A DNA stretch of 64,000 nucleotides from NCBI RefSeq assembly GCF_000803215.1, contig NZ_JSXC01000019.1, positions 1 to 64,000 of the forward strand. The letters run 5' to 3'. The notes below the pieces were generated by a model. It was not told where the DNA came from. It searched no databases and saw nothing but the letters and a program-made list of their open reading frames with translations. Position numbers and translations under genes: made by a program. Position 1 is the first letter of the stretch. Each line of letters opens with the position of its first letter. Below are positions 3,038 through 22,571 of the stretch, piece after piece. Source of the DNA: Pectobacterium fontis (GTDB lineage Bacteria; Pseudomonadota; Gammaproteobacteria; Enterobacterales; Enterobacteriaceae).

Positions 3038-4645
3038 ATGGAAAAATCCCTGATTAAATCAAGGGTGTTGACGTTCGGTCTTGGCTTGCTCGCCATGTCC
3101 GTCGCTGCGGGCGTTCAGGCAAAAACGCTGGTTTACTGCTCAGAAGGCTCCCCGGAAGGTTTTAACCCACAGTTATTCACCTCCGGTACGACATTTGATG
3201 CCAGCTCTATTCCTCTCTATAACCGTCTGGTGGAGTTTAAAGACGGCACCACGGATACCAGCCCCGGTCTGGCTGAAAAATGGGATATTAGCGAAGACGG
3301 CAAAACCTACACCTTCCATCTGCGCAAAGGCGTGAAATGGCAAGACAGCAAGGATTTCAAACCTTCCCGTGAATTCAACGCCGATGACGTGATTTTCTCC
3401 TTCATGCGTCAGCAGGATGCCAACCACCCGTACCATAAAGTCTCTGGCGGCAGCTATGAATACTATCAGGGTATGGGTATGCCAGAGTTGGTCAGCAAAA
3501 TCGAAAAAGTAGACGACTACACCGTTCGCTTTGTGCTGAACCGCCCTGAAGCTCCATTCCTGGCAAACCTGGCGATGGACTTCGCATCTATCCTGTCTGC
3601 GGAGTACGCGGATAAGATGCTGAAAGCCGGCACGCCGGAGAAGATCGACCTGAACCCCATCGGTACAGGCCCGTTCCAGCTCCAGCAGTACCAGAAAGAT
3701 TCCCGCATTCTGTACAAAGCCTTTGAAGGTTACTGGGGCAGCAAACCAGGCGTTGATCGTCTGGTCTTCTCCATCACGCCAGATGCTTCCGTACGTTACG
3801 CCAAGCTGCAAAAAGACGAATGCCAGATCATGCCGTATCCAAACCCGGCCGATCTCGCGAAGATGAAAGAAGACAAGAACATCACGTTGATGGAACAGCC
3901 GGGCCTAAACGTTGGCTACCTGTCTTACAACGTGGAGAAAAAACCGCTGGATAACGTCAAGATTCGTCAGGCGCTGAACTATGCGGTGAACAAGTCTGCC
4001 ATCATCAATGCGGTCTATCAGGGTGCCGGCCAGGCCGCAACCAACCTGATCCCGCCAACCATGTGGGGCTACAACAACGACGTTAAAGACTACAGCTACG
4101 ATCCTGAGAAAGCGAAGGCGCTGCTGAAAGAAGCGGGCATGGCTGACGGTTTCTCCATCGACCTGTGGGCAATGCCGGTACAGCGTCCGTACAACCCGAA
4201 TGCCCGTCGTATGGCGGAAATGATTCAGTCCGACTGGGCGAAAGTTGGCGTGAAAGCCAAGATCGTCACCTACGAGTGGGGCGAATATCTGAAGCGCGCG
4301 AAAGACGGTGAACACCAGACCGTGCTGATGGGCTGGACAGGTGACAACGGGGATCCAGATAACTTCTTCGCGACCCTGTTTAGCTGCGACGCGGCTAAGA
4401 ATGGCTCCAACTATTCCAAGTGGTGCTACAAACCGTTTGAAGATTTGATTCAACCGGCGCGCGCCATTTCCGATCATGAAAAACGTATTGAACTGTACAA
4501 ACAGGCACAGGTGGTGATGCACGATCAGGCTCCGGCGCTGATTGTCGCGCACTCCACCGTGTACGAGCCAGTGCGTAAAAACGTGAAAGGTTATGTCGTT
4601 CAGCCGCGTGGCGTGCATAGCTTCAACAACGTGACGTTGGATTAA
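3038..4645 (+). CDS. dppA: Periplasmic dipeptide-binding protein DppA
   Basis: Solute-binding subunit of the dipeptide ABC importer; also known in E. coli to serve dipeptide chemotaxis and heme/5-aminolevulinate uptake. The 535-residue protein matches E. coli DppA in length and nearly residue for residue: a signal peptide ending VQA, then KTLVYCSEGSPEGFNP, and the family 5 motif DLNPIGTGPFQLQQY. The start at 3038 is chosen because it gives a proper signal peptide and has GGAG eight bases upstream; the open frame extends 5' without a plausible start. It is the first gene of dppABCDF, separated from dppB by 233 bp of structured sequence, which fits the usual need for more binding protein than permease. 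Confidence 0.97.
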   Translation: MEKSLIKSRVLTFGLGLLAMSVAAGVQAKTLVYCSEGSPEGFNPQLFTSGTTFDASSIPLYNRLVEFKDGTTDTSPGLAEKWDISEDGKTYTFHLRKGVKWQDSKDFKPSREFNADDVIFSFMRQQDANHPYHKVSGGSYEYYQGMGMPELVSKIEKVDDYTVRFVLNRPEAPFLANLAMDFASILSAEYADKMLKAGTPEKIDLNPIGTGPFQLQQYQKDSRILYKAFEGYWGSKPGVDRLVFSITPDASVRYAKLQKDECQIMPYPNPADLAKMKEDKNITLMEQPGLNVGYLSYNVEKKPLDNVKIRQALNYAVNKSAIINAVYQGAGQAATNLIPPTMWGYNNDVKDYSYDPEKAKALLKEAGMADGFSIDLWAMPVQRPYNPNARRMAEMIQSDWAKVGVKAKIVTYEWGEYLKRAKDGEHQTVLMGWTGDNGDPDNFFATLFSCDAAKNGSNYSKWCYKPFEDLIQPARAISDHEKRIELYKQAQVVMHDQAPALIVAHSTVYEPVRKNVKGYVVQPRGVHSFNNVTLD

Positions 4646-11735: not shown

Positions 11736-12644
11736 TCAGGCGGCGTAAAGCAGGGCTTCGTTTTGTCTGGCGATCTCGCGACAGCGGTTTTTCATCATCT
11801 GTTTCAGTTGCAGCGTCGCTTGTGATTGTGGGTTATCACGACGGCTGATCAGCGTGACTTCAAAAGGCAGCGGCTGGTCGATAGGGACGATTTTGAGCTG
11901 ATCGGCATAGCGGCAGGCAGTGAAGAGATCGACGATACCGGCACCGCCACCTGCCAGCACCATGTCGGCAATCACCGAGTACGTTTTAATGTAGAGCGAC
12001 GCGGCGGGTTTTAGCGCTTTATCACGCAGCGCACGGTGTACCACCTGACCGAGCGGATCCTGATGCTGCATCATCAGCAGGTTGTTGTTGCACAGCCATT
12101 CCAGCGATACCGGGCCGTTTATTGGGCTGTCTTTCGGCAGCAGGGCCACCATCGTGGACTGGAATAGCGGCTCCGCCAGCAGTTCGGACGGCACCTGCTG
12201 ACCAAAGATCAGCGCGAAATCGAGCTGATTTTGCAGAATGTTCTGGCACAGCGTGCTGAAGTGTTCCGTGACGAGTTCGACCTTAACCGATGCCGCCTGC
12301 TTATGAAATTCCACCAGCGTCGGCGCGACGATCATCTGCCCAAACGCGTGTGCCGCACCCAGCCGGACAGAGTGTGCCTTGCTGGTTTTGATTTGTTCGG
12401 TGAGGGAACTGATGCTTTGCAGATGGCTGAAAAGTTCCTGCACTTTCGGGATAAGTCGCAGCCCTTCTTCGGTGGCGATCATGCCCTGCGTACGACGTTC
12501 AAACAGGGAAAAGCCGAGCTGTTGTTCCGCGTGATTCAATACCCGGCTGACGTTGGGCTGCGAAACGTTGAGCAAACGAGCAGCGCCGCTGATGGTGCCT
12601 GCCTGAACAATGGCCTGGAAGATTTCAATATGGCGTAAACGCAT
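11736..12644 (-). CDS. LysR-type transcriptional regulator
   Basis: The 302-residue protein has an N-terminal winged helix-turn-helix (MRLRHIEIFQAIVQAG, NVSQPNVSRVLNHAEQQLG, LFERRTQGM) and a C-terminal effector domain. It is transcribed in the same direction as the peptide-utilisation genes upstream and separated from iaaA by 469 bp containing a repeat element. By position it is the likely regulator of that cluster, but this is inference. Its 3' end lies 98 bp from the yicC start. Effector unknown; a peptide or amino acid would fit. Confidence 0.85.
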   Translation of the reverse strand: MRLRHIEIFQAIVQAGTISGAARLLNVSQPNVSRVLNHAEQQLGFSLFERRTQGMIATEEGLRLIPKVQELFSHLQSISSLTEQIKTSKAHSVRLGAAHAFGQMIVAPTLVEFHKQAASVKVELVTEHFSTLCQNILQNQLDFALIFGQQVPSELLAEPLFQSTMVALLPKDSPINGPVSLEWLCNNNLLMMQHQDPLGQVVHRALRDKALKPAASLYIKTYSVIADMVLAGGGAGIVDLFTACRYADQLKIVPIDQPLPFEVTLISRRDNPQSQATLQLKQMMKNRCREIARQNEALLYAA

Positions 12645-12661
12645 GGTTGCAGGCTCCGGCT

Positions 12662-12680
12662 GATGCTTCTGATAAGCATC
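12662..12680. promoter_or_regulatory. Possible LysR-type operator
   Basis: Dyad gatgctt-N5-aagcatc located 18 bp upstream of the LysR gene start. LysR proteins bind short interrupted dyads near their own promoters, so autoregulation is plausible. Evidence is position and symmetry only. Confidence 0.35.
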
Positions 12681-12724
12681 GTATGAGTAATAACCAAAAA
12701 GTCTGCAATTATTACGCCAGGTTA

Positions 12725-12998
12725 TATACCCGTCATACTTCGAGTTGTATGTGCGTTGGCTACGCTACTCCGCCCACTTGCGTGGACCTCGCCCCGTAGG
12801 GGCCGCTGCAAGCAGCGTTCAAATCTGCTCTGGCAGATTTGTCAGTCACCCGAATCACTTACCTGAGTAAGCTCATCGGGACTCCCTCTCTTGCCGCGTT
12901 ACGAGGAACATAAAATGTCCCTCGCCCTGACGGGTCAACGCCTTGCGTTGTTCAAAACGTTAACGTTTTGTCCTGAAACTCGAATTATTTAGGGTATA
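12725..12998. repeat. MITE-like palindromic repeat element
   Basis: A 274-bp noncoding unit bounded by imperfect terminal inverted repeats: the left end begins tatacccg...cttcgagttgtat and the right end is the reverse complement type, ctgaaactcgaattatttagggtata. Inside are further palindromes, including caaaacgttaacgttttg near 12953-12970. It has no coding capacity. This pattern matches a non-autonomous, folded repeat. From memory, similar sequences are dispersed in Pectobacterium and related genomes, but copy number was not checked. It separates iaaA from the LysR gene. Confidence 0.6.
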
Positions 12999-13113
12999 AG
13001 CCCGCGCTAAATGGTCGATAGATAAGCGATGAGGCGGTTTTGCGCACTATTTTGATGCCCAATATTGGTGCGTTGCACTAATGTTGGGCGTTGTGTTTCG
13101 ATGTGCTGACAAA

Positions 13114-14061
13114 TTAACGATAAATATCGGCGACGGGCGCTTCTCCTACATAACCATAGCCGCGGTACATCCCCTCGCTGTTGAACGGCAGGGCGATGTT
13201 GCCGGCTTTGTCGACGGCAATCATCCCGCCGCTGCCGCCCATTTTCACCAGTTTCTCCATCACCACACGATCGCTGGCCTGTTGTAGCGTGAGTCGGGCG
13301 TATTCCATCAGCGCCGAGACATCATAGGCGGCGACGGCACGCATAAAGACTTCGCCGGTGCCCGTGCAGGAAACGGCGACCGTCTGGTTATTGGCATAGC
13401 AGCCTGCACCAATAATGGGGCTGTCGCCGACGCGTCCAGCTTGTTTGTTGGTCATACCGCCCGTTGACGTTGCCGCCGCGAGATTCCCTGCGCAATCGAT
13501 CGCCACCGCACCGACGGTGCCGAATTTACGATCGGGATCGATAGGGTCGCTCTGGCCGTCATGGTCGAGGATGACGCGGCCTGAGCCTGCCTGCGCGTTA
13601 TGGAGTTGCTGGCGACGTTCGTCGGTGGAGAAAAACGCAGGATCAACCCGTTCCAAACCGTGCTGTTGGGCAAAGGCTTCCGCGCCGTCGGCGGTAAACA
13701 TCACATGGGGGCTGACTTCAAGTACGGTGCGGGCTGCCAGAATCGGGTTACGAATATGGCTGACGCAGCTCACTGCGCCAGCATCCAGTGAACGTCCGTC
13801 CATGATGCTGGCATCCAGTTCGTGGGTTTCCGCGTGGGTGAAGACTGAACCGTGTCCGGCATTGAACAGCGGGCACTCTTCCAGCAGACGCACAGCTTCG
13901 GTGACGGCATCCAGCGCGCTGCCGTTTTCAGCCAGAATGCGCTGACCACTGGCGACAATCTCGGACAGCGCGGCCAGATAGCGCTGCTCTTTTTCAGCGC
14001 TCATGGCCGAGCGGGTCAGCGCCCCTGCGCCACCGTGGATCACAATCACGGGTTTCGTCAT
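13114..14061 (-). CDS. iaaA: Isoaspartyl peptidase / L-asparaginase (Ntn hydrolase)
   Basis: The 315-residue homologue of E. coli IaaA starts with TKPVIVIHGGAGAL. The precursor is cleaved autocatalytically before the nucleophile threonine, here T182 in KFGTVGAVAID, to form alpha and beta subunits. Other active-site segments are present: STGGMTNK, GRVGDSPIIGAGCYAN and CTGTGEVF. It hydrolyses beta-aspartyl (isoaspartyl) dipeptides and asparagine. In E. coli iaaA heads the iaaA-gsiABCD operon; here it is the last enzyme gene of a larger cluster with a Gsi-like importer, supporting a role in degrading imported unusual peptides. It lies 58 bp after the D-aminopeptidase gene. Confidence 0.92.
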   Translation of the reverse strand: MTKPVIVIHGGAGALTRSAMSAEKEQRYLAALSEIVASGQRILAENGSALDAVTEAVRLLEECPLFNAGHGSVFTHAETHELDASIMDGRSLDAGAVSCVSHIRNPILAARTVLEVSPHVMFTADGAEAFAQQHGLERVDPAFFSTDERRQQLHNAQAGSGRVILDHDGQSDPIDPDRKFGTVGAVAIDCAGNLAAATSTGGMTNKQAGRVGDSPIIGAGCYANNQTVAVSCTGTGEVFMRAVAAYDVSALMEYARLTLQQASDRVVMEKLVKMGGSGGMIAVDKAGNIALPFNSEGMYRGYGYVGEAPVADIYR

Positions 14062-14119
14062 GCAATAAATTCTCTTTTCAAGCGATTAGGCCCCAACATC
14101 CGGGGCGGAGAAACCGGAA

Positions 14120-14941
14120 TCAGTTTTGCGTCGTCGCCAGATAGGAAAAGCCACCCAGCAGGCTGGTGATCTCTCGCATGCTCTGCGCCGTGTAACCGAC
14201 GGTTATAGCATCCAAACGTTCAACGTTCGGCAGCAGACAGAATAGATCGGCCAGAACTGGTTTTGCCACCATCAGTTCGAGACGGTAGGGTGCCTGAATC
14301 CGCGAATTCAGCGTCTGATGCGCTTTCTCTACTGCCGCTTTTGCCGCGTCACGAATCACCTGACGCGCCTGTTCGGTACTGAGGGATTCCGCCGCGTGCT
14401 GAGAGATAGCGCGCTTGACGCAGGCGTAGCCGGTGGCGGGGTAGTAACGGGCGATCCAGCTTTGCAGCGTGTCGTCTCCGCTGACCAGCCACAGCGGCGT
14501 CTTTTGTTCCACACCAGCGGCGGCGTAAATGTCGCTTTCGCCCATGATTTCGCCGTTGATGCGCACGCGATAGAAAGCGCGACCATTAATGGTATGCGAC
14601 AGCACGCCAAACTCGCCCGCTGCGCTGTGGTAGCCGATGAACATCAGGCCGTCGAACTGCTGCTGTTCTAACCCTTCCACCATCGAATAGCCGCGCGGTT
14701 TGCCCTGTACCAGCCGGGCGCGGGCGTCGATGTTTTCTGCACGCAGATTGACCATCGCCGCGTGGCTGTCGGCGACCACGACGTCGGTTGCACCACCCGC
14801 AAATGCGCCGTCGATGGCGGCATTCACTTCCTGCTCCATCAGGCCGCGTGCCAGTTGGTATTCCGCGGTGCCGGGGCTGCACTGTTCCGGGCGCATCACG
14901 CCGGCGATCCCTTCGATATCAGCAGAGATAAACACTTTCAT
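14120..14941 (-). CDS. M55 family D-aminopeptidase (DppA-type metallopeptidase)
   Basis: The 273-residue protein resembles Bacillus subtilis D-aminopeptidase DppA (274 residues), a zinc enzyme releasing N-terminal D-amino acids such as D-Ala from D-Ala-Gly-Gly. It is unrelated to the binding protein DppA at 3038. The N-terminal KVFISADIEGIAGV gives the ligands D8 and E10. H60 lies in VVADSH, H105 in GYH, and a further glutamate (about E135) in MGESDIY; H116 in LSHTING matches the conserved active-site region. All are where the family expects them. It lies between the P1 peptidase (25 bp upstream) and iaaA, all one direction, so probably one operon. Cytoplasmic, no signal peptide. Confidence 0.85.
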   Translation of the reverse strand: MKVFISADIEGIAGVMRPEQCSPGTAEYQLARGLMEQEVNAAIDGAFAGGATDVVVADSHAAMVNLRAENIDARARLVQGKPRGYSMVEGLEQQQFDGLMFIGYHSAAGEFGVLSHTINGRAFYRVRINGEIMGESDIYAAAGVEQKTPLWLVSGDDTLQSWIARYYPATGYACVKRAISQHAAESLSTEQARQVIRDAAKAAVEKAHQTLNSRIQAPYRLELMVAKPVLADLFCLLPNVERLDAITVGYTAQSMREITSLLGGFSYLATTQN

Positions 14942-14966
14942 AATCAGTTTCCTACGGGAGAATGTC

Positions 14967-16043
14967 CTAACGGATAAGCGTTTCGGCCAACCGATCCAAC
15001 GCCTGTGACAGCGTTGGGCGGTGATGGCCGCGAAAACCGGTCACGGCGTCAGCCTGAAGCATGGCGTCGAGCACCGCATGTTCGGTGGCGTCGGCGGCGG
15101 CGCTTAACAGCGGCTCAAGCTGCGCATCCTCCGGCGGCTGTGGCTGTGGGCAGGTGGAAAACGCGACGGCGATATCGCCGGAACCGTGTCCCCAGTAGCT
15201 GCCGAGTCGTCCTAATCCTGCGCCTGCACGTTTAGCGATGCGCTTGAGCTGGCGGGCGTCGAGCGGGGCATCCGTCGCCATGATAATGATGATCGATCCG
15301 GCGTCCTGCTGCGGGGCGAGATCTGGTAGAATCGGGGCGATGGCGCTTCCCATCTGCACGCCGTCGAGCGTCAGCGCGGAAAGCGTACCGAAGTTTGCCA
15401 ACACCAGCACGCCGAGCGTGGCGTTTAATTCAGGGATCAGGCGTGATGCGGTGCCGATGCCGCCTTTCAGGCTAAAGCAACTCATGCCGCGTCCGGCACC
15501 GACGCTACCGCGTGCGAAGCTATCTGCTGCGCTATCCAGTGCTTGCCGGGCCATGTGTTCCGTCACCGCCAGCGCCTGAATGTCGTTCAGCCAGCCGTCG
15601 TTGCACTCCAGCGCCAGCGGGTTCACCGTCGGCAGGGTACGACCTAGTTCAGGGTTACGCGCAATCGCGTCACGCACCAGCGTGGTAAACAGCGTACCGG
15701 TTGCCAGTGTGTTGCTGAGCAGGATGGGCGTTTGCAGTACTCCCAACTCCTCAATTTGTACCAGCCCGACAGGTTTGGCGAAGCCGTTCAGCACCGCTGC
15801 GCCGCACGGCAGAGGCTGGATGAACAGGTTTTCGCCGGGCGGTACAATCGCGGTGACGCCAGTTTGCACGTTGCCTGCCACCAGCGTGCAGTGACCGACG
15901 CGCACGCCTGCCACATCGCTAATGCGGTTATGCGATCCGCTGACCGAGCGCGGCGTACCCAACTGCCGCGTCGCTTTCCAGCGTTGTAGCAACAGCGTTT
16001 GCTGCTGCTGGTGATAGTCGTTCATCGGGTGCTCGCCGTGCAT
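14967..16043 (-). CDS. P1 (DmpA/BapA) family aminopeptidase
   Basis: The 358-residue protein is related to DmpA (L-aminopeptidase/D-Ala esterase-amidase) and BapA (beta-peptidyl aminopeptidase). These are self-cleaving N-terminal nucleophile enzymes. Conserved segments are ISDVAGVRVGHCT near residue 41, GSVGAGRGM and KGGIGTASR around 180-200, ANFG near 217, and the cleavage site AGS-IIII, whose serine is at 250, the same number as the DmpA and BapA nucleophile. Family members accept peptides with N-terminal D-, L- or beta-residues. It follows the permease gene by only 8 bp. The start at 16043 has GAGGAAGG close upstream; an ATG six codons later is an alternative. Confidence 0.85.
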   Translation of the reverse strand: MHGEHPMNDYHQQQQTLLLQRWKATRQLGTPRSVSGSHNRISDVAGVRVGHCTLVAGNVQTGVTAIVPPGENLFIQPLPCGAAVLNGFAKPVGLVQIEELGVLQTPILLSNTLATGTLFTTLVRDAIARNPELGRTLPTVNPLALECNDGWLNDIQALAVTEHMARQALDSAADSFARGSVGAGRGMSCFSLKGGIGTASRLIPELNATLGVLVLANFGTLSALTLDGVQMGSAIAPILPDLAPQQDAGSIIIIMATDAPLDARQLKRIAKRAGAGLGRLGSYWGHGSGDIAVAFSTCPQPQPPEDAQLEPLLSAAADATEHAVLDAMLQADAVTGFRGHHRPTLSQALDRLAETLIR

Positions 16044-16051
16044 CGCCTTCC

Positions 16052-16951
16052 TCAGCTTTTCAGTTTGGGATCGAGCGTATCGCGCAGCGCATCCCCGAGC
16101 AGGTTAAACGCCAGCACGGTGAAGAAAATCGCCAGACCGGGGAACACGCTGACGTGCCAGGCACCTGCCATCATCAGGCTGCGGCTCATCGCCAGAATAT
16201 TACCCCACTCTGGTACGTCCGGCTCCGGGCCAAGGCCGATGAAGCTCAGCCCTGCGGCCGTCAGGATGCTGGTGCCGATACGCATGGTGAAATAGACGAT
16301 CACGTTAGGCAGCGTGCCGGGCAGGATGTGGCGCATCAGTACGATGCGATCTGGCGCACCGGCGCAGCGTACCGCTTCTACATAAGCCGCCTGTTTCAGC
16401 GACAGCGTAGAGGCACGCACGATGCGGGCGAAAACCGGCACGCTGAAGACGGCGACGGCGATAATCACGTTATTCAGGCCAGGGCCGAGGATGGCGACGA
16501 CCGCAATGGCCAGCAGCATACCGGGGAAGGCGAACAGCACGTCGGAACCGCGCATGATCAGCGTATCGACCCAGCGACCGTAGTAGCCTGCTAACAGGCC
16601 GAGCACGATGCCGACCAGCATGCCCAGCGTGACGGAAAAGATACCGATATAGAGCGAGATGCGAGCGCCGTAGATGATGCGGCTCATCACATCGCGCCCG
16701 AGATCGTCAGTACCCATCCAGTGTGCTGCCGACGGCGGTGACGCCAGCGCCATCCAGTCTGGCTCCATCGGGTTCCACGGTGCCAGCCAGGGGGCGAAGA
16801 TCGCGACCAGTACCAGCAGCAGAACGAAGCCGCTGGACACCAGCGCCATCGGGTTACGGATAAAGACCTGAACGAAATCGCGCCACGGCGAACGTATCGT
16901 CTCTTCATCAAGCGTGGCTGCGGCCACGACGGGTTCGGAAGGGAGGTTCAT
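16052..16951 (-). CDS. Peptide ABC transporter permease, GsiD/DppC type
   Basis: Inner-membrane permease of 299 residues. It has a hydrophilic N-terminus, then the DppC/OppC signature HWMGTDDLGRDVMSRIIYG, six membrane segments, an EAA loop (AAYVEAVRCAGAPDRIVLM) and the terminal RDTLDPKLKS. Its partner permease ends 8 bp upstream. By gene order (ATPase, binding protein, permease, permease) it corresponds to GsiD of the E. coli glutathione importer, but the surrounding peptidases suggest other peptide substrates. Confidence 0.88.
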   Translation of the reverse strand: MNLPSEPVVAAATLDEETIRSPWRDFVQVFIRNPMALVSSGFVLLLVLVAIFAPWLAPWNPMEPDWMALASPPSAAHWMGTDDLGRDVMSRIIYGARISLYIGIFSVTLGMLVGIVLGLLAGYYGRWVDTLIMRGSDVLFAFPGMLLAIAVVAILGPGLNNVIIAVAVFSVPVFARIVRASTLSLKQAAYVEAVRCAGAPDRIVLMRHILPGTLPNVIVYFTMRIGTSILTAAGLSFIGLGPEPDVPEWGNILAMSRSLMMAGAWHVSVFPGLAIFFTVLAFNLLGDALRDTLDPKLKS

Positions 16952-16959
16952 CGTGTCTC

Positions 16960-17880
16960 CTAACGTAGGCGAATCGCCGGATTGACCACCGCGTACAGCA
17001 GGTCCACCAACAGGTTAATGACAATAAATTCAAACACGAACAGCATCACCAGCGCCTGAATGACGGGCTGATCCTGCGTCTTGATGGATTCAATCAGCAG
17101 CCAACCTAAACCCGGCCAGCTAAACACGCTTTCGACCACGATAGAGCCACCAAGCAGGAAGCCGAATTGCAGCCCGAGCATGGTGATGACCGGGATCAGC
17201 GCGTTACGCATCACATGCTTCCAGGTAATCAGTCGGTTGCGGAGTCCTTTGGATCGCGCGGTACGCACATAGTCTTCCTGCGCGACTTCCAGAAACGCGG
17301 AGCGGGTAAAGCGCGCCATCACAGCGGCTACCGATGCCCCGAGCGTCAGCGCGGGCAGAATGATGTCGCTGGGCTGATTAAAGCCGCTGACGGAAAACAC
17401 GCCGAACGGCATCGCCACAAACTGAATCAGCAACAGGCCGAGCCAGAACGGTGGCATGGAAATCCCGCCGACCGCGATGCTCATCAGCGTCCAGTCCTGC
17501 CATTTTCCGCGCTTGAGCGCCGAAACGACGCCGATCAGCAGGCCGAGTAGCACCGACCAGACAAACCCCGCCAGCGCCAGCCACATGGTGGGCATAAAGC
17601 TCTTGCTGATGACGTCGATAACCGGATGCTGCGTGCGGTAGGTGACACCCAGATCGCCGCTGAACAGGCCGCCGAGCCAGTTGATGTACTGCTGCGGCAG
17701 CGGGTCGTTCAATCCGAGCTGCTGACGGGCGGCTTCCACCGCCTCAATGGTTGCGTCAGCGCCCGCGTAAATACGTGCCGGATCGCCCGGCAGCAGTTTG
17801 ATAAAACCGAACACTAACAGGGAGACCACCAGTAGAACCGGGATCATTTCCAGCAAACGTCGGACGATATAAGCAAACAT
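16960..17880 (-). CDS. Peptide ABC transporter permease, GsiC/DppB type
   Basis: The 306-residue protein has exactly the length of E. coli GsiC and ends NPAIRLR, like GsiC. The N-terminal MFAYIVRRLLEMIPVLLVV membrane anchor, the LPGDPARIYAG periplasmic motif and the EAA loop (EDYVRTARSKGLRNRLITW) identify a DppB-type permease. It lies 18 bp downstream of the binding-protein gene and 8 bp upstream of the GsiD-type gene, so co-transcribed. Confidence 0.88.
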   Translation of the reverse strand: MFAYIVRRLLEMIPVLLVVSLLVFGFIKLLPGDPARIYAGADATIEAVEAARQQLGLNDPLPQQYINWLGGLFSGDLGVTYRTQHPVIDVISKSFMPTMWLALAGFVWSVLLGLLIGVVSALKRGKWQDWTLMSIAVGGISMPPFWLGLLLIQFVAMPFGVFSVSGFNQPSDIILPALTLGASVAAVMARFTRSAFLEVAQEDYVRTARSKGLRNRLITWKHVMRNALIPVITMLGLQFGFLLGGSIVVESVFSWPGLGWLLIESIKTQDQPVIQALVMLFVFEFIVINLLVDLLYAVVNPAIRLR

Positions 17881-17898
17881 GGCGTTCTCCCTGACCGA

Positions 17899-19440
17899 TT
17901 ACTTAAATTCAGCCTGATCGAAGATCAGCGAGCCATCTGCCAGCATGTACACGCCGTCGAGATTCTTGGTTTTACCGACGATGTTGTCTGGCGTACCCAG
18001 GAAGACCACAGGCGCATCCTGCCAAATCTGACGTTGTGCATCGGCGTAAGCGGCGGCACGTTTGTCGGCATCGGCGGTGGCCAGACCGGCGGTAATGGCT
18101 TTATCTGTTACCGGATTGCTGTAGTAGGAGACGTTATAAGCGGCCGGCACCCAGGATTCGGTGGAGAACAGAGGACGCAGCGCCCAGTCAGCATCACCCG
18201 TAGACGGCGACCAGCCGTTGTAGAACAGGTCAAATTCGGCATCTTTCGGATCTTTCACGCCAAACAGCTTAGCGTTGCGCATCCCTGAATCCATTGGGGT
18301 GACGGTGACTTTGACGCCGACCTGCTCTAACTGCTGTTTGAAGAACTGCGCGCTACGGATGTAGTCGGTGCGGTTTGTCGTCCACAGTTTCAGGCTCAGG
18401 CCGTTGGCGTAGCCGGCTTCTTTCAACAGCGCCTTGGCTTTTTCCGGGTTATAGGTGTAGTTCGGTGAACTCTGGCGCGCGAAGAACTGCACGTCTGGTG
18501 CCATCGCAGAGGTGGCAGGAACGCCCATACCCGCAAAGCCCACTTTCAGCCAAATGTCGCGGTTGATGGCGTAGTTGAGCGCCTGACGCACGCGGATATC
18601 GTTCAACGGTGGACGCAGGTTGTTCATCGCCAGCCAGAATTGATAAATGCTTGGGTCGCGCTGAATCGCCAGCTTGCTGTCGCTTTGTACGGTAGCAATC
18701 AGATCGGAAGGCAGCGGATACGCGGCATCGACCTGACCGGATTTCAGTGATGCCACGCGGGTGGAATCTTCCGGCGTCGGGTAGAAGGTCACGCTGTCCA
18801 CTTTCGGCCAGCCTTTCTGCCAGTAGTTGTCGAATTTCACCAGCTTCACGTCTTTACCCTGCTGCCACTCGGCGAATTTGAACGGGCCAGTACCGACCGG
18901 GTGGACGCGCAACTGCGCTTCATCCGGGTATTGTTTCAGGGCTTGCGGGCTGTGCATGACGGCAGAGGGGTGCGCCAGCGTGTTCACAAAGGCACCAAAG
19001 GATTTGTTTAGCTCGATTTTGACCTGCGTCGGCGACAGCACAGTCACGGTTTGCACCATGTTAAACAGGCTATTACGTTTCAGACCTTTGCTCTGATCGG
19101 CCAGACGGTCAAGGTTGGCTTTAACGGCATCGGCGTTGAACGGCGCACCGTCCTGAAAGGTAATGCCTTCGCGCAGCGTGATGACGAACTCGGTCGCCGT
19201 GTCATTGCTGGTGTAGCCCGTCGCCAGACGTGGCACCAGCTTCATTTTATTATCGAACTGGAACAGGCGTTCGAAGATGCCGCTCTGAATCGAGTAGCTC
19301 AGCGTGTCTGAGGTATCGTGCGGATCGAGTCCGGTGATATCGGCATAGATGGAAATGCGAAGATCTTGCGCCTGGGCAACAGCCGCCAGACACAGTGATA
19401 GCCCGAGGGCAACGGCGGAGCGGCGAACGAATGGCTTCAT
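17899..19440 (-). CDS. Periplasmic peptide-binding protein, GsiB-like (SBP family 5)
   Basis: The 513-residue protein has a signal peptide of about 24 residues ending AQA. It resembles GsiB (512 residues): LDPHDTSDTLS near the mature N-terminus, the family 5 motif HPVGTGPFKFAEW, FNADAVKANLDR, VRQALNYAINR and the C-terminal third GWSPSTGDADWALRPLFS. GsiB binds glutathione; residues here differ enough that the ligand cannot be assumed. It is separated from the ATPase gene upstream by 141 AT-rich bases with a 12-bp direct repeat, so it may have its own promoter or processing site. Confidence 0.88.
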   Translation of the reverse strand: MKPFVRRSAVALGLSLCLAAVAQAQDLRISIYADITGLDPHDTSDTLSYSIQSGIFERLFQFDNKMKLVPRLATGYTSNDTATEFVITLREGITFQDGAPFNADAVKANLDRLADQSKGLKRNSLFNMVQTVTVLSPTQVKIELNKSFGAFVNTLAHPSAVMHSPQALKQYPDEAQLRVHPVGTGPFKFAEWQQGKDVKLVKFDNYWQKGWPKVDSVTFYPTPEDSTRVASLKSGQVDAAYPLPSDLIATVQSDSKLAIQRDPSIYQFWLAMNNLRPPLNDIRVRQALNYAINRDIWLKVGFAGMGVPATSAMAPDVQFFARQSSPNYTYNPEKAKALLKEAGYANGLSLKLWTTNRTDYIRSAQFFKQQLEQVGVKVTVTPMDSGMRNAKLFGVKDPKDAEFDLFYNGWSPSTGDADWALRPLFSTESWVPAAYNVSYYSNPVTDKAITAGLATADADKRAAAYADAQRQIWQDAPVVFLGTPDNIVGKTKNLDGVYMLADGSLIFDQAEFK

Positions 19441-19533
19441 GGTTATCTCTCCTGGTCAGCAATGAACGTGTGTTGTGTTGTGAATACGTCGTGTTTTGTG
19501 GCTATTTTTTGTCGCTGTTTTAACGGCTTATCT

Positions 19534-19561
19534 ATACGACATTGTGTTGATACGACATTGT
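19534..19561. repeat. Tandem 12-bp direct repeat between ATPase and binding-protein genes
   Basis: The sequence atacgacattgt occurs at 19534-19545 and again at 19550-19561, a 16-bp period. It lies in the only sizeable gap inside the importer operon. Function unknown; a protein-binding site or a remnant of slippage is possible. Confidence 0.5.
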
Positions 19562-19581
19562 TTTTTATAAAATATTGTGTT

Positions 19582-21453
19582 TCAGGCGGCCGATTCGTTG
19601 TCGGCAACCCAGTGCTGCGGCGCGACCTCGCGGTAGCGCGTTTTGGTGACGACCTCACCGGCTTTACGCAAAGGTGAGGGGATTTCGCTGTCGTCAAACT
19701 GGCGTGTGCCGCGACGGGTTGGGTCGGCAATCGGAACCGAGGCCAACAGGCGGCGGGTATACGGATGTTGAGGATTGTTAAACACCGACTGGCGCGGGCC
19801 GATCTCTACAATCTGGCCGAGGTACATCACCGCGACGCGGTTGGCGATACGCTCGACAACGGCCATATCGTGTGAGATGAAAATCCACGACACGCCGGTT
19901 TTCTTCTGGAGATCCATCATCAGGTTGACGACCTGCGCCTGAATCGACACATCAAGCGCCGAGACGGCTTCGTCAGCAATGATGACCTGTGGCTGTAGCG
20001 CCATGGCGCGGGCAATCGCGATGCGCTGACGCTGCCCGCCGGAAAACTCGTGCGGATAACGCCGCGCATGCTCAGGCAGCAGGCCGACGCTTTTCAGCAG
20101 CGCCTGCACCTGCGGCGTCGCTTCTTCCAACGATTTCACCAGCCCGTGCAGCAGCAGCGGCTCAGCGATAGTAAAACCGACCGTCAGGCGCGGGTTGAGC
20201 GAGGCATACGGATCCTGAAATACCATCTGCATTTCCCGACGCAGCGGCTGGAAATCACGCTCTTTCATCTGGGAAATTTCGTTGCCCTGAAAGTGAATGC
20301 TTTCGGCGTCACTCTGAACCAGACGCAGCAGGGCGCGTCCGGTGGTGGACTTGCCGCAGCCGCTTTCCCCGACGATCGCCAGCGTTTCCCCCGGCCAGAC
20401 GTTGAAATCAATCTGTTCTACCGCGTGAACGTGATGGCTCACGGTGGAGAAAATCCCGCTGCGCATCGGGTAATACACGCGCAGCCCGCGGATATCCAAG
20501 AGCGGCTCGGCGTCATAGCGTGCGGTGACCTGTTCACTATTTTCCGGCTCGGCGGCCTGCCCCAGCAGCGGGAAGCGCTTCGGCCAGAGGCTGTCGCGCA
20601 TGTCGCCCAGCTTCGGTACGGCGGCCAGCAGCGACTGGGTATACGGGTGTTGCGGCGCGGCAAAAATCTGCTCGACGGAGCCTTGCTCCACGATCTCACC
20701 GCGATACATCACCACCACGCGGTCGGCGATTTCTGCCACTACGCCCATATCGTGGGTAATAAACAGCACCGCCATGTCGCTCTGCTGTTGCAGGTCGCGC
20801 AGGATTTGCAGAATGCGCGCCTGCACGGTGACGTCCAGCGCGGTGGTGGGTTCATCGGCAATCAACAGTTGCGGATCGCAGGCAAGCGCCTGTGCGATCA
20901 TCACGCGCTGACGCATTCCGCCAGACAGCGAGTGCGGATAGCTTTTCATCACGCGATCGACATCCGCGATACGCACTTTATGCAGCAGTTCGCGGGCTTT
21001 TTTATCCGCGCTGGCGGCATCGCAGAGTTTGTGGTCCAGCAGCGCTTCGGTGAGCTGATCGCCGACTTTCAGTACCGGATTGAGCGAGGTCATCGGTTCC
21101 TGAAAAATCATGGCGAGATCGCGGCCGCGCAGTTTACGACGCGCGTCTGCTTTCATTCGCAGCAGATCATGCTGCTGCCCGTCGCGTGCGGTGAAACGGA
21201 GCGCGCCGCGTTCGATGTTGGCAGAATCTGCCAGCAGCCCCATCACGGTGAGTGACGTCACGGACTTGCCAGAACCACTTTCGCCGACCACGGCGACCAC
21301 TTCCCCTTTATTCACGGTAAAGGAAATGCCTTTTAGCGCCTGATGCGTGCCGGAGCGGCCGCTAAAGCTGACGCTCAGATCGTCGATTTCCAGTACAGGT
21401 CTGGGGGCGTTACCGGGTGCTGTGGCGGCACCCGCGTGCATGATATCCGTCAT
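19582..21453 (-). CDS. Fused double ATPase of peptide importer (GsiA-like)
   Basis: Two complete ABC ATPase domains in one chain (623 residues from this start). The first has Walker [22 protein letters not shown] and [12 protein letters not shown]; the second has [27 protein letters not shown] and VIIADEAVSALD, with DEA instead of DEP as in E. coli GsiA. The length is also that of GsiA. The frame starts at 21501, where its ATG overlaps the epimerase stop (ATGA). But ATG at 21453 is preceded by CCGGAG at ideal spacing, so I prefer 21453. It energises the GsiC/GsiD-type permeases encoded downstream. Confidence 0.88.
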   Translation of the reverse strand: MTDIMHAGAATAPGNAPRPVLEIDDLSVSFSGRSGTHQALKGISFTVNKGEVVAVVGESGSGKSVTSLTVMGLLADSANIERGALRFTARDGQQHDLLRMKADARRKLRGRDLAMIFQEPMTSLNPVLKVGDQLTEALLDHKLCDAASADKKARELLHKVRIADVDRVMKSYPHSLSGGMRQRVMIAQALACDPQLLIADEPTTALDVTVQARILQILRDLQQQSDMAVLFITHDMGVVAEIADRVVVMYRGEIVEQGSVEQIFAAPQHPYTQSLLAAVPKLGDMRDSLWPKRFPLLGQAAEPENSEQVTARYDAEPLLDIRGLRVYYPMRSGIFSTVSHHVHAVEQIDFNVWPGETLAIVGESGCGKSTTGRALLRLVQSDAESIHFQGNEISQMKERDFQPLRREMQMVFQDPYASLNPRLTVGFTIAEPLLLHGLVKSLEEATPQVQALLKSVGLLPEHARRYPHEFSGGQRQRIAIARAMALQPQVIIADEAVSALDVSIQAQVVNLMMDLQKKTGVSWIFISHDMAVVERIANRVAVMYLGQIVEIGPRQSVFNNPQHPYTRRLLASVPIADPTRRGTRQFDDSEIPSPLRKAGEVVTKTRYREVAPQHWVADNESAA

Positions 21454-21497
21454 GGTCACTCCGGTTGAGGGGGTTAAGGTTGCTGTGATTGATCGCG

Positions 21498-22478
21498 TCA
21501 TAGCCAGATGCGGCCAAGGTTATAGGTCAGATAGGGCGAGCTGTCGGCGGCCAGCCAGATAGGGCCGTCGAGATCGACATGCTCGGCATCGGCGGCCACG
21601 GGCAGAGCGGCTTCCATCGCCATCGATGAACCCAGCATGCAGCCAACCATAATGCGCAGGCCGTGAAACTGAGCCTCACGTACCATCGCCAGCGCTTCCG
21701 TCAGCCCGCCACACTTGTCCAGCTTGATGTTGATCATGTCGTAACGACGGCGTAGCCCGACGATGTCCCCGCTGTGGCGGCAGCTTTCATCCGCGCAGAT
21801 AGGGATCGGGTGGGTAAAGCGTTGTAAATCCTCGTCCTTACCGACCGGCAGCGGTTGCTCAATCATGGCGACCTGATAAGGCAGCAGCGCGGTAGAGAGG
21901 CTGTGTAAATCCAGCCCGCCCCAGCTTGCTCTCGCGTCGATAATCAATTTGGCTTCGGGAGCGGCGGCGCGAATGGCGGCGACTTTTTCCAGAATCAGTT
22001 CGCGATCCAGTTTGATTTTCAGCAGCAGCGCGCCGTGAGACACGGCACTGGAGGCGGCGGCGGCCATGTTCTCCACGCTGTCGAGCGCCAGCGTTTGCGC
22101 ACACACCACGGATGTAGGAGGATGAATGCTAAGGCGTTGCCACAGCGTCTGTTTTTCCAATGCGGTGTTGAGCCGCCACAATGCGCAGTCCAGCGCATTT
22201 CTGGCGGCACCCGGCGGTAATTCTTGCTGAAGCTGTTCGATGGTCAGGCCATGCTCTATCGCCTCACGGATCGCTGAGAGCTGGCGACATACGCTATCGG
22301 CAGACTCGCCATAATGTGCGGCGGGCGTACATTCGCCTTGTCCGATAAATCCTTTTTCTTCTAACGCGACGCGGATAACAGTAACCGCATGACGCGTGCC
22401 GTTTTCAGATGCCATGGGACGGGCCAGTGGCAGATTGACCGTTTCAATTTGCATATGCCGCATCATGGTTGTTCTCAT
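21498..22478 (-). CDS. ycjG: L-Ala-D/L-Glu (dipeptide) epimerase, enolase superfamily
   Basis: The protein of about 326 residues resembles E. coli YcjG (AEE), which epimerises L-Ala-D-Glu from murein to L-Ala-L-Glu. Catalytic features are the lysine pair in LLKIKLD near residue 155, metal ligands in LIIDARASW, the glutamate in MIEQPLP, the aspartate in CADESC and the second-side lysine in NIKLDKCGGL, plus the recognition loop near GECTPAAHYGES. It appears to be the first gene of the operon. The frame begins with TTG at 22481; ATG at 22478 is the more likely start, with further ATGs downstream. No signal peptide. The symbol is by family; substrate may be another dipeptide. Confidence 0.85.
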   Translation of the reverse strand: MRTTMMRHMQIETVNLPLARPMASENGTRHAVTVIRVALEEKGFIGQGECTPAAHYGESADSVCRQLSAIREAIEHGLTIEQLQQELPPGAARNALDCALWRLNTALEKQTLWQRLSIHPPTSVVCAQTLALDSVENMAAAASSAVSHGALLLKIKLDRELILEKVAAIRAAAPEAKLIIDARASWGGLDLHSLSTALLPYQVAMIEQPLPVGKDEDLQRFTHPIPICADESCRHSGDIVGLRRRYDMINIKLDKCGGLTEALAMVREAQFHGLRIMVGCMLGSSMAMEAALPVAADAEHVDLDGPIWLAADSSPYLTYNLGRIWL

Positions 22479-22542: not shown

Positions 22543-22571
22543 GTAGGGTATAACCTGAGGTTATACCCTAC
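22543..22571. repeat. Perfect 13-bp hairpin with gggtata/tataccc arms
   Basis: The arms gtagggtataacc and ggttataccctac are perfectly complementary around the loop tga. It lies between the divergent epimerase and rph genes. The outer agggtata/tataccct matches the terminal repeats of the 274-bp element at 12725-12998, suggesting a minimal or collapsed copy of the same repeat. It could fold in RNA from either strand. Confidence 0.5.

Follow-up and report, generated by a model that had tools for sequence, protein, structure and literature searches.

A peptide-import and peptidase operon of Pectobacterium that probably lost dgcN and may have kept its racemase for a new substrate

Introduction

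Why should a peptide importer and three peptidases be encoded together with an enolase-superfamily epimerase? The question is raised by a block of eight genes and a neighbouring lysR gene in Pectobacterium fontis, within positions 1-64,000 of contig NZ_JSXC01000019.1 (the window, meaning the whole 64,000-nucleotide stretch analysed; related genomes and loci carry labels such as L177). An initial annotation, made from the sequence alone, had read the block as a dedicated peptide-scavenging pathway with a dipeptide epimerase, an enlarged version of the iaaA-gsiABCD unit of E. coli. Placement in Pectobacterium is consistent with the P1 peptidase gene, which occurs at 92-95% identity in genomes of the same genus and in named Pectobacterium contigs. 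A literature search of a limited collection returned no paper describing this operon by title or abstract opening.

Comparison with relatives points to a less simple history for the epimerase. With moderate confidence, we propose that the block represents, in Pectobacterium, an Enterobacterales operon for the import and cytoplasmic breakdown of D-glutamyl peptides, one that lost dgcN and whose orphaned racemase would now act on a new substrate. The founding paper on the DgcN-DgcA D-glutamate pathway is said to be that of Yu et al. (ISME J, 2023). In the available text of PMC12363236, PMC10845958 and PMC11747546, DgcN yields N-acetyl-D-Glu from D-Glu, and DgcA then racemises N-acetyl-D-Glu. The relatives of the block have adjacent dgcN and dgcA, and the window epimerase shares ancestry with dgcN-adjacent dgcA; the window differs in having no dgcN, altered racemase motifs, and the racemase gene set among a peptide importer and peptidases.

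Results

A conserved operon between rph and yicC

The features of the locus are as follows.

22547..22567, no strand: candidate LysR operator, the perfect dyad GGTATAACCT-C-AGGTTATACC of the T-N11-A type (genome site search and locus survey)
21498..22463, minus strand: enolase-superfamily epimerase/racemase (MR_MLE), putatively a former DgcA, with altered active-site motifs (family models, PDB, motif scan)
19582..21501, minus strand: GsiA-like fused double ATPase (NCBIfam GsiA 828 bits, cut-off 1077)
17899..19440, minus strand: GsiB-like binding protein, SBP_bac_5 (GsiB 490 bits, cut-off 594; top PDB match YliB, 1uqw)
16960..17880, minus strand: GsiC-like permease (394 bits, cut-off 463)
16052..16951, minus strand: GsiD-like permease (405 bits, cut-off 484)
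14967..16043, minus strand: P1 peptidase (S58, DmpA/BapA-type) with Ser250 (Peptidase_S58, PF03576, E 2.7e-103; PDB 2drh, 1b65, 3n2w)
14120..14941, minus strand: M55 D-aminopeptidase (Peptidase_M55, PF04951, E 4.2e-94; DppA, 1hi9)
13114..14061, minus strand: IaaA-type isoaspartyl peptidase with Thr182 (Asparaginase_2, PF01112; PDB 2zak, E 2.4e-127; a single match in the genome)
11736..12644, minus strand: LysR-type regulator (PF00126 and PF03466; a relative in 56 of 80 named loci)

As first described, eight genes run in one direction on the minus strand, from 22463 to 13114, and lysR comes next at 12644-11736, all nine being full open frames; the gene families named at the time agree with the Pfam and NCBIfam assignments of all nine proteins and, for five, with PDB sequences. 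The block is indeed flanked by rph, on the plus strand, and by yicC, on the minus strand, and the E. coli arrangements named in that annotation and its comparison are both present in K-12, where rph adjoins yicC and moeBA stands beside iaaA-gsiABCD. The short intergenic gaps reported for the block hold for most of the eight genes (-4, 141, 18, 8, 8, 25 and 58 bp) and fail for the 141 bp between gsiA and gsiB and the 469 bp between iaaA and lysR; because of the latter distance, lysR is likely its own transcription unit. The epimerase start is likely ATG 22463 or 22466, rather than 22478 or TTG 22481, and the GsiA-like ATPase has an alternative start at 21453 with a better ribosome site.

The catalytic residues pointed out by the initial annotation were also recovered. 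Ser250 of P1 is invariant in ten sequences, including that of the window, and aligns with DmpA; PDB comparison places the start of the IaaA beta chain at residue 182, where the threonine is of the N-terminal nucleophile (Ntn) hydrolase type; and the M55 metal ligands align with the positions that we take to be the ligands of DppA (1hi9). P1, M55 and IaaA have one match each in the genome. IaaA falls under its NCBIfam equivalog cut-off (491 against 567), as does M55 on the DppA model (161 against 430); the block M55 thus belongs to the family of DppA, and a function shared with DppA is only putative.

Neighbourhoods were compared in the best 80 of 282 P1-encoding stretches (the named loci), so the survey covers P1 at approximately 60% identity or more, and absences are soft owing to contig ends, a 10-kb flank limit and identity thresholds. 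P1, present in all 80, was accompanied by M55 in 77, the epimerase, GsiC and GsiD in 72 each, GsiA and GsiB in 70 each, DgcN in 57, LysR in 56, IaaA in 26, rph in 24 and yicC in 17. Both rph and yicC were present in 17 loci, all from Pectobacterium, Samsonia, Brenneria or Lonsdalea. A search of 394 genomes from the order found P1 relatives in 21, the source genome among them (E up to 1e-20). A chance neighbourhood was rejected, as the gene set recurs over the 80 named loci; the operon is real and conserved. Some blocks look broken: Brenneria 4F2 shows no gsiB-D, and the B. salicis iaaA is in two pieces. One enterobacterial block (L116) is labelled 'Martelella alba', a label that looks wrong.

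The operon probably lost dgcN in the Pectobacterium-Brenneria clade

In relatives of the block the epimerase gene is preceded by dgcN, which encodes D-glutamate N-acetyltransferase and which 57 of the 80 named loci hold. On plasmids pKPN_CZ and pEA320 it lies one base ahead of dgcA. DgcN of relatives exceeds the NCBIfam cut-off (520 against 480), and the block 'epimerase' is annotated as DgcA, N-acetyl-D-Glu racemase, in all three annotated records examined.

The genome of the window gave no DgcN match at E up to 10, and none was found in 25 genomes of the genus Pectobacterium, a search that had no positive control within it; family-model searches found DgcN in 23 of 32 genomes of relatives and in 23 of 149 genomes of the family. 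Counted per genome among those 32, DgcN was absent from all nine Pectobacterium and Samsonia, single in all five Brenneria and Symbiopectobacterium-type genomes, double in all seven Dickeya, Prodigiosinella and Lonsdalea, and single or double in 11 from other genera. Within the block itself dgcN was not found in Pectobacterium, Samsonia, three Brenneria and three Symbiopectobacterium-type genomes. One of the last three (L081, 1001295B) is labelled 'Serratia marcescens' and clusters with Symbiopectobacterium in the racemase tree, so the label looks wrong.

The first gene and rph are 203 bp apart in the window, 203-1122 bp apart in 11 loci without dgcN, and 2180-2268 bp apart in five dgcN-bearing Pectobacteriaceae. 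Five such gaps were searched with three DgcN queries. That of Brenneria L070 matches DgcN residues 1-26 (46%, with E 0.003 against a very small search space) and is a probable dgcN scar; no match better than E 0.4 came from the remaining four. The dgcN-less racemases (19 sequences) form one clade with support 97/97, and we conclude that the operon probably lost dgcN in the Pectobacterium-Brenneria clade.

A second dgcN-dgcA-dat set is found in Dickeya, Prodigiosinella, Lonsdalea, Brenneria and Symbiopectobacterium, between alaC and mscK in the last three. Nine Pectobacterium loci and Samsonia have alaC-dgcA2-dat-mscK at this position, with dgcN2 missing and no convincing remnant of it at the locus (best E 1.1). 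With both dgcN genes missing and both dgcA genes present, Pectobacterium has lost its two acetyltransferases while retaining the two racemases. Two Dickeya have the second set at another place (L201, L202), and a different, solitary dat is left at their alaC-mscK position (L200, L203). Elsewhere, L179 and L180 have a broken dgcN, and dgcA2 of L195 is in two pieces.

The racemase changed at its motifs under purifying selection

The window epimerase falls within a 26-row clade together with dgcA of Dickeya, Prodigiosinella and Lonsdalea (support 100/96). The family named by the initial annotation stands, and 'dipeptide epimerase' proved too simple: the gene groups with the DgcA partner of DgcN and its motifs have changed, while dgcN was invisible to a reading of the window because it is missing there.

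The 64 dgcN-bearing racemases, a set that includes some genomes twice (e.g. L043/L102, L046/L123, L047/L133, L048/L134), all share four motif residues: Phe and Arg in PFxIxRG, Asn and Glu in DANE. The 19 dgcN-less sequences (L042 and L067 are identical; L080, which carries a stop codon, and the paralogue L040 were excluded) keep the Phe in 3, the Arg in 2, the Asn in 3 and the Glu in 5, and all 19 retain KxK, the three metal ligands, the second Lys and DLD. In Pectobacterium two motif residues swap identity (Arg21 to Asn, Asn178 to Arg) and Glu179 becomes Ala; in Symbiopectobacterium, of the same dgcN-less clade, the same motifs are altered to other residues. The old motifs are still present in two of three Brenneria, which suggests that loss of dgcN preceded the motif change. 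The motifs of dgcA2 are intact in nine Pectobacterium loci and in Samsonia, the latter with an I to L change beside the Arg.

We scanned for positions that are invariant in dgcN-bearing loci yet changed in Pectobacterium and Samsonia (14 sequences, one a duplicate). The epimerase had 8 of 111, compared with 2 of 1147 in seven neighbouring proteins (GsiA 0/295, GsiB 1/192, GsiC 0/190, GsiD 0/164, P1 0/113, M55 1/102, LysR 0/91), giving a Fisher p of 1.1e-7 that is to be read with the non-independence of sites on one branch in mind. IaaA (1/163), with only 9 reference rows, was excluded from this comparison. Epimerase controls gave 0/115 in Dickeya-Lonsdalea-Prodigiosinella and 0/111 in Rahnella; Brenneria (2 sequences) had 1/111, and the Symbiopectobacterium type (2 sequences) 19/111, along with 4/164 in GsiD, 3/192 in GsiB and 2/295 in GsiA. 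The changes in Pectobacterium and Samsonia are F17M, I19A, R21N, T48A, N178R, E179A, A207V and H229R, most of them in or beside conserved motifs, within loops and strand ends. These elements carry substrate specificity in the enolase superfamily.

The block epimerase is under strong purifying selection. Its median omega within Pectobacterium (77 of 78 pairs) is 0.055, close to that of P1 (0.065), with the other block genes at 0.008-0.036; for comparison, the epimerase has 0.044-0.104 in dgcN-bearing genera and dgcA2 has 0.080 in Pectobacterium. Between Samsonia and Pectobacterium the epimerase has an omega of 0.127, the highest of the nine block genes. All 12 of the further Pectobacterium loci examined have an uninterrupted epimerase frame. 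A burst of rate on the Pectobacterium epimerase stem was considered and rejected: of the ten genes compared, the epimerase has the longest three-point stem in absolute length, but not once the stem is scaled to within-genus divergence.

The importer is a paralogue of Gsi

The best NCBIfam match of each of the four importer parts is a GsiA, GsiB, GsiC or GsiD model, with all four under the equivalog cut-offs, and canonical gsiABCD lies elsewhere in the genome (locus L039, contig C36), beside moeA and moeB and without iaaA. The GsiB of that locus reaches 1028 bits against the cut-off of 594, compared with 490 for the block protein. We therefore regard the block importer as a paralogue and not as canonical Gsi, and the enlarged iaaA-gsi unit initially proposed was rejected, since the canonical set sits separately at moeA in the same genome. 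As that set has no iaaA, the sole IaaA found in the genome is the block copy. The window encodes an additional binding protein at 3062-4591, with 30% identity to the block GsiB.

Regulatory and noncoding features

With as many as 3 mismatches allowed, the dyad at 22547-22567 has no second match in its genome, and a survey of 81 loci (the 80 named loci and the window), 75 of them usable, recovered it in 73 (no more than 5 mismatches in 20 positions, in the 300 bp ahead of the first gene), L084 and L116 being without it; none of 1500 mononucleotide shuffles matched. It is likely the operator of the block's LysR protein. A gene set kept across genera, with a conserved dyad ahead of its first gene, fits the dedicated pathway suggested at the outset, and the importer and peptidases indeed stay together over genera in the co-occurrence search that had been called for.

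Between 10700 and 22760 there was no surplus of promoter-like sites (3 against 5.1 expected) or terminator-like sites (15 against 12.8 expected). Within the iaaA-lysR gap (12645-13113) is a long, imperfect palindrome that has TATACCC ... GGGTATA at its ends and a fold z-score of -7.0, and that resembles a miniature inverted-repeat transposable element; aligned across seven Pectobacterium, Samsonia and Brenneria loci, this gap ranges from 208 to 473 bp.

Discussion

A probable D-glutamyl-peptide operon with an orphaned racemase

In the pathway that we infer, the predicted order of cleavage follows family chemistry: DmpA is an L-aminopeptidase and DppA a D-aminopeptidase. The Gsi-like ATP-binding cassette (ABC) importer, presumably under LysR control, would take up D-Glu-containing peptides, murein-type stem peptides being the best candidates; P1 would cut off the N-terminal L-residue (L-Ala), M55 would next remove the exposed D-residue (D-Glu), and IaaA would handle iso-linked aspartyl pieces. 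In relatives, DgcN would acetylate the freed D-Glu and DgcA would convert N-acetyl-D-Glu to N-acetyl-L-Glu. As Pectobacterium and Samsonia lost the second dgcN as well, their freed D-Glu would need a different route, for which the D-amino acid transaminase (by family model) that dat encodes at the second locus is one possible candidate. The racemase has been kept under selection while its motifs changed, and so its present substrate is probably a different N-acylated compound or a dipeptide. Our tentative view, held at somewhat less than even odds, is that the operon racemase was re-tuned to a new substrate after both dgcN genes were lost, with the unchanged dgcA2 keeping the old activity; the outcome may be an epimerase new to the enolase superfamily, acting perhaps on a D-Glu dipeptide taken up by the cell or on a peptide released by P1 or M55. 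A tie between the peptidases and D-Glu catabolism apart from this importer is suggested by L177, where dgcN, dgcA, P1 and M55 are consecutive and the stretch has no Gsi-like genes, and by L113, with dgcN-dgcA-P1 and a more distant importer set near by.

Several observations weigh against this proposal. The window epimerase scores 360 on the AEE model (cut-off 343) and 391 on the DgcA model (cut-off 400); the racemases of two relatives exceed the latter at 436 bits each, as does E. coli YcjG at 423, with 674 on the AEE model. Since NCBIfam thus fails to separate DgcA from AEE, the DgcA name rests on the dgcN neighbour and on database annotation. The eight changed epimerase sites all fall on a single branch and do not count as independent observations, and the ratio of epimerase stem to within-genus divergence, 6.6, is unexceptional beside 2.2-10.3 in the other genes. 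P1 resembles PDB 2drh more than DmpA or BapA (which we take to be entries 1b65 and 3n2w). No gamma-D-Glu-diaminopimelate endopeptidase family (NlpC/P60 or MpaA type) was found among the nine block proteins by Pfam or NCBIfam. IaaA, in just 26 of the 80 stretches, has no clear step in the D-Glu pathway. Four named loci (L118, cut by a contig end, L136, L137 and L138) hold P1-M55 but lack dgcN, racemase and importer, the pair in L136 being next to a gene for a leucyl aminopeptidase, and fit a peptidase pair of wider use rather than strict coupling. Lastly, of 33 genomes searched 27 had a dat match, including genomes that bear dgcN, and dat is therefore no specific replacement for DgcN.

Alternative explanations

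The epimerase could instead be an ordinary L-Ala-D/L-Glu epimerase in a broad scavenger of D-, beta- and iso-peptides, built by adding genes to iaaA-gsiABCD. Its AEE score, its closest PDB entry (1jpd, an L-Ala-D/L-Glu epimerase) and the presence of three peptidases of differing type favour such a scavenger, which we nevertheless consider unlikely: canonical gsi is separate, relatives carry dgcN ahead of the epimerase gene, iaaA is found in so few of the named loci, and YcjG, far above the window protein on the AEE model, retains the Arg and DANE motifs, both of which the Pectobacterium enzyme has lost. Less probable still is a second importer of glutathione or gamma-L-glutamyl peptides with accessory peptidases, in which a gamma-Glu-recognising GsiB would serve to gain sulphur and nitrogen from plant thiols. 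The Gsi models as top matches of all four parts, and YliB as that of the binding protein in the PDB, speak for it; yet all four fall short of the Gsi cut-offs that the GsiB of the other locus far exceeds, L177 keeps dgcN-dgcA-P1-M55 without Gsi-like genes, and we know of no role for dgcN-dgcA, M55 or P1 as glutathione enzymes.

It is also conceivable that the epimerase has been decaying since the loss of dgcN and contributes nothing, the remainder being a plain peptide operon. Otherwise invariant residues are altered in three sublineages, L080 has its stop codon, some Brenneria blocks are broken, and the Samsonia-Pectobacterium omega of the epimerase tops the nine genes. Against this stand an omega of 0.055 over 77 Pectobacterium pairs, near that of P1 and inside the range of dgcN-bearing genera, the full retention of KxK, metal ligands, second lysine and DLD, and the open frames of the 12 other Pectobacterium loci. 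Simple decay was rejected on the strength of this purifying selection, and we regard a non-contributing epimerase as very improbable.

Comparison with known systems

E. coli iaaA-gsiABCD likewise joins IaaA and a Gsi-type importer in one unit; the block adds the epimerase, P1, M55 and LysR, and its importer is paralogous and under the Gsi cut-offs. The dpp-ykf region of Bacillus subtilis, to which dppA presumably belongs, resembles the block in combining an M55 D-aminopeptidase, a peptide ABC importer and an AEE-type epimerase. The block differs in having P1 and IaaA, a Gsi-type importer and dgcN ancestry, and neither a YkfA-type LD-carboxypeptidase nor a YkfC-type NlpC/P60 family member (gamma-D-Glu-diamino acid endopeptidase) was found among its nine proteins. 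The available text of PMC2954226 links the peptide ABC importer and AEE-type epimerase of that B. subtilis region to murein peptide use, and describes the E. coli murein tripeptide route MpaA-YcjG-PepD. The latter route shares with the block an epimerase of the same superfamily and possibly the end product; its peptidases are others, and the block has no MpaA-type protein.

Significance and spread

The proposal links P1 and M55, families of unclear natural substrate, to D-glutamate catabolism in enterobacteria and makes their substrates testable. The clade also offers a natural experiment in enzyme evolution, with a racemase that has its partner in Dickeya and Lonsdalea, has lost it with the old motifs largely intact in Brenneria, and has changed its motifs in Pectobacterium and Symbiopectobacterium.

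Of 5426 complete E. coli genomes, 5 carry P1-M55; the one examined (AH04, L206) has the dgcN version on its chromosome, with insertion sequence elements near by. A plasmid collection of 72,556 records gave P1 matches in 198, with identity of 80-90% in 21; among the 25 P1 plasmid matches listed, 20 are from K. pneumoniae, 3 from Enterobacter and 2 from Pantoea, and pKPN_CZ and pEA320 were examined in detail. The K. pneumoniae plasmid pKPN_CZ (L139), typed as conjugative, bears the dgcN version of the operon, and this copy, together with close P1 relatives on other Klebsiella and Enterobacter plasmids, suggests that the set can travel as nutrient-use cargo.

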